Positions 2,640-63,710 of a stretch of 64,000 nt of DNA are shown piece after piece; the first letter of the stretch is position 1, and each line of letters starts with the position of its first letter. The position numbers and the translations under genes are program-made. The DNA comes from Rhodococcus sp. SGAir0479 (GTDB lineage: Bacteria > Actinomycetota > Actinomycetes > Mycobacteriales > Mycobacteriaceae), in the NCBI RefSeq assembly GCF_005484805.1, contig NZ_CP039432.1, positions 1,240,001-1,304,000 of the forward strand, written 5' to 3'. The notes under the pieces were generated by a model. It saw nothing but the letters and a program-made list of their open reading frames with translations. It was not told the DNA's origin and did not search any database.

Positions 2640-3071
2640 ATGACGTCGCAGAAGACCCCCCAGACGATGAAGCCCGCCACCGCGGCCAAGAAGCTGGGTG
2701 TGTACCTCCAGGCCACTCCCGCCGAATTCCGGGACGGTGTGGTCTCGCGCGACGAATTGAACGAATGGCAGACCAATCCGCCGGAGTGGCTCGTCGCGCT
2801 CCGGAAGGACGGGCCGCACCCGAAGGACGTCGTGGCCGCGAAGCTCGGCGTCTCCATTGCCGGTCTCGCGCGTGGCGGCGTGTCGGACGCCCTCACCACC
2901 GCACAGATCGACGAATTGCTCGCCGATCAGCCCGACTGGCTGGTCGCCGAGCGCGCCAGCCTCGTCGAGGTACGCAAGGACGAGAAGCGAATTCGGGAGC
3001 AGCAGGCCGCCAGGCGCGAGCAGTCCAACCGCCGGCCCCGCAGCGCCGGGCCGTTCAAGCCGCAGGCGTAA
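2640..3071 (+). CDS. DUF5997 family protein
   Basis: A 143-residue soluble protein matching the actinobacterial DUF5997 family as I know it: KPATAAKKLGVYLQATPAEF near the N-terminus, a central PPEWLVALRKDGPHPKDVVA segment, and a charged C-terminus rich in Arg/Lys/Gln. The sequence looks mostly helical, with no signal peptide and no membrane segment, and the middle resembles a small DNA- or RNA-binding helical bundle. That reading is speculative. It is transcribed away from the HTH-less LysR-like gene out of a shared 73-nt spacer, an arrangement typical of a regulator and its target. Biochemical function is not known to me. Confidence 0.75.
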   Translation: MTSQKTPQTMKPATAAKKLGVYLQATPAEFRDGVVSRDELNEWQTNPPEWLVALRKDGPHPKDVVAAKLGVSIAGLARGGVSDALTTAQIDELLADQPDWLVAERASLVEVRKDEKRIREQQAARREQSNRRPRSAGPFKPQA

Positions 3072-60151: not shown

Positions 60152-61009
60152 ATGCTCAACATCACGGGCGCGGTCGCGCCGGTCGGCACCCTGCCGCCCG
60201 GCTCGATGGTGGAACTGCCGGGGCGCGGCGCCACCTACGTCGTCGACACCGATGCCGGGGCCGGCGGGGCCCGCGACGGCCGGCCGACGCTGGTGTTGTT
60301 GCACGCCCTGGCGTGCACCGGCGCGTTGACCTGGTATCCGGCCATCGAACAGCTCGCGCGGAAGGCGCGCGTCGTCGTCCTGGACCAGCGCTGGCACGGA
60401 CGCGGCATCCGTTCCGACCGGTTCACCCTCGAGGACTGCGCGGACGACGTCGTCGCGCTGGCCGACGTGCTGGGCATCGACCGGGTGGTCCCGGTCGGCT
60501 ACTCGATGGGCTCCCTCGTCTCGCAGCTCGTGTGGCAGCGGCATCGGGACCGGGTGAGCGGGTTGGTCCTCTGCGCTGCGGCAGCGCACTTCCGGCGGAA
60601 CTCCCGGGAACGGGTGGCGCTCGGCTCGCTCAGCGCCGGACTCGGCGCGCTCGAGCTGCGGCCCGGACCGGTCCCCGCCGGTCGTGGTCACGGCGGCAGC
60701 GACCGAGCGTGGGCGTACACCCAGTTCCGGGAGACGAGCTACGGCGCGATCTGCCGGGCTACCGCCGAGATCGGCAAGTTCGACTCCACCGCGTGGGTCG
60801 GCGACATCGACGTGCCCACCGCCGTCGTGGTGCCCGCGCGAGACCTGATCATCCCGCCGCGACGCCAGCGCTGGCTCGGACGCCAGATCACCGGCGCCGC
60901 GACGTACGAGGTGGACGGCGGTCACCTCTCGTGCGTCATGAACGCCGCAGCGTTCACCGAGGGGCTGTCCGCTGCTTCTGCGTCGGTGCTTGCGCGCGCG
61001 CAGCGGTGA
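60152..61009 (+). CDS. Alpha/beta hydrolase
   Basis: A 285-residue cytoplasmic alpha/beta-hydrolase. Visible are the oxyanion segment LVLLHALACTGALTWYP, the nucleophile elbow GYSMGS with Ser118, an acid near VVPARDLIIPPRRQ and the His in DGGHLSCVMN. Proteins of this type cleave esters, lactones or C-C bonds; the substrate is unknown. Its C-terminal 56 bases overlap those of the WS/DGAT gene on the opposite strand, an uncommon tail-to-tail overlap for genes of this length. Neighbour genes suggest a lipid-linked role, which is inference. Confidence 0.85.
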   Translation: MLNITGAVAPVGTLPPGSMVELPGRGATYVVDTDAGAGGARDGRPTLVLLHALACTGALTWYPAIEQLARKARVVVLDQRWHGRGIRSDRFTLEDCADDVVALADVLGIDRVVPVGYSMGSLVSQLVWQRHRDRVSGLVLCAAAAHFRRNSRERVALGSLSAGLGALELRPGPVPAGRGHGGSDRAWAYTQFRETSYGAICRATAEIGKFDSTAWVGDIDVPTAVVVPARDLIIPPRRQRWLGRQITGAATYEVDGGHLSCVMNAAAFTEGLSAASASVLARAQR

Positions 61010-62381: not shown

Positions 62382-62392
62382 GCAGTTAACAG

Positions 62393-62406
62393 TAGAACCT
62401 GTTCTA
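62393..62406. promoter_or_regulatory. KstR-type operator between WS/DGAT and the esterase gene
   Basis: TAGAAC-CT-GTTCTA is a perfect palindrome that fits the KstR pattern TnnAACnnGTTnnA exactly. KstR is the TetR repressor of sterol catabolism genes in mycobacteria and rhodococci. The site covers the WS/DGAT -10 hexamer and lies 45 nt before the esterase start, so it could control both divergent genes. Confidence 0.6.
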
Positions 62407-62450
62407 GATTTCTGGGTGCGTTGTGACAAAACTCATGGTTAAATGGTTTT

Positions 62451-63710
62451 ATGTGGTTAAGTAACAGGTTCCTATTGCGACAGGTGGTTACCGCTGCTCT
62501 GGCGGCAAACGCGGTGCAACCGGTGCCCGGTATGCCGCTCTCGGTGCCGACGTTCCTGTCGGGATGGCTCACCGCCGAACTTGCCCCACAGTTGCTGGCG
62601 GCGACGGTGGCCGATGCCGGGATCCGTGTCGCGCGGGGACGCATCCGGTCCCGGGCAGACGTCGCCGGCCTCGCTCTGGCGGGGGTGTCGGCGACCGCGC
62701 TCACCGCGGTGGTCACGGCCGGGCGTGGCGCCCGCGCGGAGGTGGAGTCGGCGCTCACCGAAGCCCTCGGGTCCGACTGCCGCACGGTCGCGGACCGGCC
62801 GGCCTCCGACGGCGCCGTGCCCTGGCGTCAACTCGCCTGGCCGTTCCGGATGCGCCGCGCCGACGTCGTGCGGGTGCGCAACCTCGCCTATGCGCCGGGT
62901 GGGCGACGGTTCCGGATGGACGTCTACCACCGGCGGGACACGCCGACGAACGCCCCGGTCCTGCTGCAGATCCACGGCGGCGGCTGGGTCACCGGCAGCA
63001 AGGACCACCAGGGAGTCCCGCTGATGCTCGAGATGGCCTCGCGCGGATGGGTGGGCGCCGCGATCAACTACCCGCTGTCCCCGCGTTCGGTGTGGCCCGC
63101 CCACCTGATCGCGATCAAGCGGGCGGTGGCGTGGCTGCGGGAGAACGCCGCGACGTACGGCGGGGATCCCGACTTCATCGCGGTGACCGGCGGGTCGGCC
63201 GGCGGGCATCTCGCGGCGATGCTCGCGCTCACCGCGGGAGAGTCGGGGCTGCAGCCCGGATTCGAGGACGCGGACACCTCGGTGCAGGCGTGTGCCCCGC
63301 ACTACGGCGTCTACGACTTCGCCGGAGAGACCGGCATCAAGGCGGTGCGCCAGCGTGTGCAGTCGGGGCTCATGCCACTGGTACTCGGGAAGCAGGCGCG
63401 GTTCCCCGAGGACTACGAGGCCGCGTCCCCGCTGGCACATCTGCGTGCGGACGCTCCACCGTTCTTCGTCATCCACGGCACCAGCGATTCGTTCATTCCG
63501 GTCGCCGAGGCACGGGAGTTCGTGCGGCGGTTGCGCGCGGTCTCGGTCAACCCCGTCGCGTACGCCGAACTGCGGGGCGCCCAGCACGCCTTCGACATCT
63601 TCCCGTCGATCCGGAGCATCACCGTCGCCCGGGGCGTCGCGGACTTCCTGGACTGGGTGCACGCACCGCGTGGGCACGGCCGGGGCCGGGCGGACGCGGA
63701 CGCCGGGTAG
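62451..63710 (+). CDS. HSL-type esterase/lipase (alpha/beta hydrolase)
   Basis: A 419-residue protein. After about 130 mostly helical residues, possibly membrane-associated (LAANAVQPVPGMPLSVPTFLSGWLTAELAPQL), comes a hormone-sensitive-lipase catalytic domain: HGGGW (175-179), GGSAGGH with Ser249, an Asp in SDSFIP and the His in QHAFDIF. This resembles the mycobacterial Lip family of esterases that split acyl esters, perhaps stored or host lipid. It is divergent from the WS/DGAT gene, with a KstR-type palindrome between, so synthesis and breakdown of acyl esters are paired here. Actual substrate is unknown. Confidence 0.87.
   Translation: MWLSNRFLLRQVVTAALAANAVQPVPGMPLSVPTFLSGWLTAELAPQLLAATVADAGIRVARGRIRSRADVAGLALAGVSATALTAVVTAGRGARAEVESALTEALGSDCRTVADRPASDGAVPWRQLAWPFRMRRADVVRVRNLAYAPGGRRFRMDVYHRRDTPTNAPVLLQIHGGGWVTGSKDHQGVPLMLEMASRGWVGAAINYPLSPRSVWPAHLIAIKRAVAWLRENAATYGGDPDFIAVTGGSAGGHLAAMLALTAGESGLQPGFEDADTSVQACAPHYGVYDFAGETGIKAVRQRVQSGLMPLVLGKQARFPEDYEAASPLAHLRADAPPFFVIHGTSDSFIPVAEAREFVRRLRAVSVNPVAYAELRGAQHAFDIFPSIRSITVARGVADFLDWVHAPRGHGRGRADADAG

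Follow-up and report, generated by a model that had tools for sequence, protein, structure and literature searches.

The locus described here raises the question of why a palindrome of the type bound by the sterol repressor KstR lies in the promoter region of a gene for a WS/DGAT acyltransferase, and which of the two divergent genes around it is controlled. The main features of the window, by which we mean the whole 64-kb stretch of DNA analysed, are listed in Table 1. The reading that we favour, with a probability of roughly 0.8, is that the palindrome is a genuine KstR operator and that the WS/DGAT gene is derepressed together with the sterol pathway, its product storing acyl-CoA, and possibly sterol, as neutral lipid. 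The site, its place in the promoter, the kstR gene and regulon of the genome, and the conservation were observed, while binding, derepression and lipid product are what we infer.

Table 1. Coordinates of the acyltransferase locus and its predicted regulatory elements in the window.
Feature	Position	Strand	Basis or remark
WS/DGAT acyltransferase, 475 aa	60954..62381	-	TIGR02946 511 bits (cut-off 310); PF03007 + PF06974
Divergent LipQ-like alpha/beta-hydrolase, 419 aa	62451..63710	+	PF20434/PF07859; NF052354 LipQ 320 bits
Convergent alpha/beta-hydrolase at the 3' end of the WS/DGAT gene	60152..61009	+	PF00561; neighbour only
Putative KstR-type operator, palindrome TAGAAC-CT-GTTCTA	62393..62406		PWM 23.8 bits; 14th of 50 genomic motifs
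Weak second AACnnGTT element (AGTAACAGGTTCCT)	62460..62473	+	Within esterase start; PWM 8.6
Likeliest -10, TACTGT (TANNNT)	62389..62394	-	7 nt before ATG; leaderless mRNA predicted
TTGTCA, -35 of the preliminary description	62424..62429	-	17 nt before TAGAAC

The preliminary description, made from the sequence alone, was right in calling the gene a WS/DGAT, as its TIGR02946 score lies far above the cut-off; the HHxxxDG catalytic motif is intact as HHANVDG. The divergent hydrolase falls below the curated cut-off of 700 bits of the LipQ family (NF052354) and is therefore referred to as LipQ-like only. The convergent hydrolase gene is kept in Prescottella.

The 14-mer TAGAACCTGTTCTA is the sole match to TnnAACnnGTTnnA (TNNAACNNGTTNNA) in the window, where 0.12 matches are expected from dinucleotide shuffles; for TAGAACNNGTTCTA with up to two mismatches, 0.17 are expected. 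The exact fit to the consensus that had been claimed for this palindrome thus held, and at the same position. Its CT/AG core belongs to a minority among known KstR sites. The identical 14-mer bound KstR in EMSA at Rv3520c/Rv3521 of M. tuberculosis (Kendall 2007, PMC1995591, Table 3), although in the same study Rv0223c was EMSA-negative despite a good motif. The weak second element was rejected as another operator within the esterase start, since it scores low, is altered in several species and owes its conservation to coding (Asn-X-Phe).

Sites were scored with a weight matrix (PWM) built from 47 published mycobacterial KstR sites (PMC1995591, Table 3). In a pattern search of the 4.97-Mb genome (G000), 50 motif palindromes were found, against 11 for a reversed-pattern control. 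The genome encodes a KstR equivalog (NF033703, 335.7 bits, cut-off 280) at G000:C1:4714418-4714963, and the top-scoring motif (30.0) is that of the kstR promoter itself, with a gene for an acyl-CoA dehydrogenase on its other side. Motifs also precede the genes for 3-oxosteroid 1-dehydrogenase (kstD, PWM 22.3), steroid 3-ketoacyl-CoA thiolase (fadA5, with a divergent P450 gene, 19.7) and FadD8 (19.4), while others precede kshA-like, kshB-like and YrbE/MlaE-type permease genes. The names kshA, kshB and cyp125 come from our reading of the sequences, as no specific model confirmed any of them, and the ORFs near some motifs identify the neighbouring genes rather than their exact starts. The site before the WS/DGAT gene outscores those of fadA5/P450 and kstD. 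The genome thus has an autoregulatory kstR site and known sterol targets that carry the same motif. In the family as a whole, KstR is above cut-off in 236 of 301 genomes, the sampled operator bearers among them. Taken together with the EMSA-positive 14-mer and the conserved spacing described below, the top site at kstR and the motifs at sterol genes provide good computational support for the KstR-type identity originally proposed for the site.

The regulatory system resembles the KstR regulon of M. tuberculosis and M. smegmatis (PMC1995591) in its palindrome, its repressor family (NF033703), an operator over the core promoter, an autoregulated kstR and conserved sterol-catabolic targets. It differs in that neither the motif table nor the text of that study mentions acyltransferase, wax or triacylglycerol genes. 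In the open-access literature searched, we found no paper that describes a WS/DGAT as a KstR target. The WS/DGAT target and its lineage-specific distribution provisionally appear to be unreported, within a type of system that is itself known.

A comparison with close relatives, which had been suggested as a check, placed the operator at precisely -25 from the WS/DGAT start codon in each of the 14 genomes of the genus (one copy, being fragmented, was anchored manually), with 11 of its 14 positions invariant. Members of this genus include Prescottella equi and relatives, Rhodococcus spongiicola and R. xishaensis. Counting as an operator any match of more than 10 bits within the 70 nt that precede the best-matching gene, we found one in 49 of 77 other family genomes, from 11 further genus-level groups, mostly at -23 to -25, as against 10 of 8198 background 70-nt tiles (0.12%). 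Among the bearers are Antrihabitans, a Skermania, R. spelaei, R. tibetensis, R. marinonascens, R. aetherivorans and R. ruber. In contrast, no exact motif was found within 400 nt upstream of any of 16 WS/DGAT paralogs in the genus. The operator is also absent from all Mycobacterium, Mycolicibacterium and Mycobacteroides counterparts examined, which are 60-63% identical and have other neighbours, and from some KstR-bearing genera (g4, g10 and g13). R. oryzae and R. maanshanensis (loci L116 and L118, upstream of position 3001) have decayed operators, TAGAAGCGACTCTA and a shortened form; as both species encode KstR, they provide natural operator-loss controls. A metagenome-assembled genome labelled Jatrophihabitans (L126) has the WS/DGAT gene, an operator at -25 and a LipQ-like gene, and represents either a mislabelled bin or a horizontal transfer.

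The preliminary description had placed both divergent genes under KstR. An alternative of the same kind, which we consider unlikely, is that the operator acts mainly on the LipQ-like esterase gene, or to the same extent on the two genes as a turnover pair. The divergent arrangement is found in Prescottella, several Rhodococcus, Antrihabitans and Skermania, and the space between divergent genes is a frequent location of KstR motifs (PMC1995591). However, the distance of -23 to -25 to the WS/DGAT ATG is maintained even where no LipQ-like gene is adjacent, as in R. spongiicola, R. xishaensis, Antrihabitans stalagmiti, R. aetherivorans, R. ruber and R. sp. CH91 (esterase-less loci with operator: L107, L108, L114, L117, L119 and L160). 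Since the spacing to the acyltransferase gene is kept where the esterase was lost, the acyltransferase is the conserved target of the site. KstR control of the WS/DGAT gene is thus computationally well supported, by the spacing and by the paralogs that have no site. The esterase half of the claim did not fare as well, as the site outlives the esterase gene, whose start lies 44 nt beyond the operator; in this genome the esterase is a possible second KstR target, to which conservation lends no support. In R. spongiicola and R. xishaensis (L107 and L108) both flanking hydrolase genes are gone, and the retained operator has its core changed to CA.

It is still less probable that the main regulator is not KstR but a KstR-like TetR paralog responding to another acyl-CoA ligand, which would tie the WS/DGAT to fatty-acid or alkane-type substrates. 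Several TetR proteins of the genome share the recognition helix of KstR (GTLYRYFPSK), so that a related repressor might bind, and KstR has known paralogs in Rhodococcus and in environmental mycobacteria (PMC3388012). The core dinucleotide also drifts at orthologous WS/DGAT promoters, where CA, TC, AA and CC were seen, a range wider than Kendall's list. Among these TetR genes, however, only kstR has the motif in its own promoter, and none was found near the genes of the paralogs. Moreover, when 40 genomes were tested, the closest paralog (3740577-3741200) had no orthologue in 13 that bear the operator (G011, G013, G027, G038, G048, G053, G056, G087, G139, G155, G078, G263 and G152), all of which have KstR above cut-off. 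The absence of this paralog from so many operator-bearing genomes led us to reject it as the conserved regulator and, together with the presence of KstR and its autoregulatory motif, favours KstR. Finally, a chance palindrome arising from AT-rich promoter sequence and bound by no regulator was dismissed as extremely improbable: although chance may account for about 11 of the 50 motifs in the genome, the shuffles of the window, the genomic control and a position conserved across 12 genera all speak against it.

Upstream regions with an intact start codon were compared for 139 orthologues. A TANNNT hexamer precedes the start codon by 6-7 nt in 46 of 54 operator-bearing and 72 of 85 operator-less promoters. 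This makes TACTGT the most likely -10, and the WS/DGAT mRNA is probably leaderless, starting at the ATG. Leaderless steroid genes, such as kstD3, have been reported in R. ruber (PMC8228715). The overlap between operator and TACTGT is confined to the final TA of the palindrome; the operator is predicted to lie between -35 and -10 and to overlap the edge of the latter. A position just upstream of the -10 and sharing its TA agrees well with steric repression, the mode suggested by Kendall et al. for kstR (PMC1995591). Previously, the operator had been placed over the -10 box of TTGTCA-N17-TAGAAC. This arrangement is indeed present on the minus strand, but the comparison of the 139 regions makes TAGAAC a less likely -10 than the TANNNT at the 3' edge of the operator. 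The TTTGTCACA block lies 29 nt from the preferred -10 and is nearly invariant in the genus; given this conservation of TTGTCA, a second promoter or another element may be located there. Between the two genes (window positions 62406-62440), the TTTGTCACA and CATGA blocks remain nearly invariant in the genus even where the esterase has been lost.

According to the mechanism that we propose, KstR would bind as a dimer between the -35 and -10 elements in the WS/DGAT promoter and block transcription of the leaderless mRNA. Uptake of sterol and activation of its side chain would generate a CoA thioester inducer that removes KstR, in keeping with the known KstR ligands, CoA thioesters formed early in the breakdown of the cholesterol side chain (PMC8228715). 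The acyltransferase would then be produced alongside the enzymes of sterol degradation and would park surplus acyl-CoA from growth on sterol as neutral lipid, possibly storing the sterol itself as well (triacylglycerol, wax ester or steryl ester). Sterol breakdown would in this way be linked to storage-lipid synthesis.

As for the lipid product, R. jostii RHA1 has 14 WS/DGATs, of which Atf11 (ro06855, 464 aa) is encoded beside a lipase/esterase gene, ro06856 (PMC2667194). The orthologues in large-genome Rhodococcus likewise have 464 aa, an intact HHxxxDG motif, an adjacent esterase gene and the operator. On the basis of length, motif and context, the WS/DGAT is a putative orthologue of Atf11. 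Atf11 appears once in the open-access literature searched, which gives neither its function nor its regulation. In RHA1 cultures that grow on cholesterol with limiting nitrogen, triacylglycerol and cholesteryl esters build up to as much as 7% of dry weight (Holert et al. 2020, as cited in PMC8401914). The conditions resemble those considered here in combining sterol growth with a storage product of the acyltransferase type, while the passage that reports them in PMC8401914 names no enzyme or regulator. Given this accumulation and the match to Atf11, the WS/DGAT would be a natural candidate for the formation of steryl esters. The more specific idea that Atf11-type WS/DGATs act as bacterial sterol O-acyltransferases during sterol growth and nitrogen limitation, with the adjacent LipQ-like esterase releasing the sterol again, is possible but doubtful. 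A parallel is offered by M. tuberculosis tgs1, a WS/DGAT gene whose transcript is also raised by cholesterol (PMC8196197); unlike here, the response goes through PrpR, and tgs1 belongs to the DosR regulon and not to that of KstR. The different route for tgs1 and the Mycobacterium counterpart that has no KstR site suggest separately evolved solutions to one problem.

A KstR-type site on a WS/DGAT promoter in twelve genus-level groups suggests a coupling of sterol use to the storage of lipid, possibly in esterified form. Rhodococcal WS/DGATs are many and their individual roles mostly obscure; the repressor site would assign one of them to the sterol regulon, and so indicate when the enzyme is used and on which substrate it may act. 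The site further yields a concrete prediction about the fate of surplus acyl-CoA and sterol in actinobacteria that degrade sterols, among them the horse pathogen genus Prescottella.

Several other motifs of the genome have neighbours of their own interest. Two KstR-type motifs (17.7 and 20.8 bits, at G000:C1:964274 and 965319, locus L012) flank a 326-aa ORF with no Pfam match and precede cysD, which encodes the small subunit of sulfate adenylyltransferase, an unexpected place for a sterol operator. The motif TGAAACAGGTTCTA at G000:C1:2216272 (L048) lies upstream of a gene for an NDMA-dependent alcohol dehydrogenase, which is itself located directly downstream of two tandem WS/DGAT paralogs. 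Another motif, scoring 29.6, at G000:C1:4090173 (L065), precedes a SnoaL-like gene; a double-TetR ORF that resembles Mce3R lies about 0.7 kb away.
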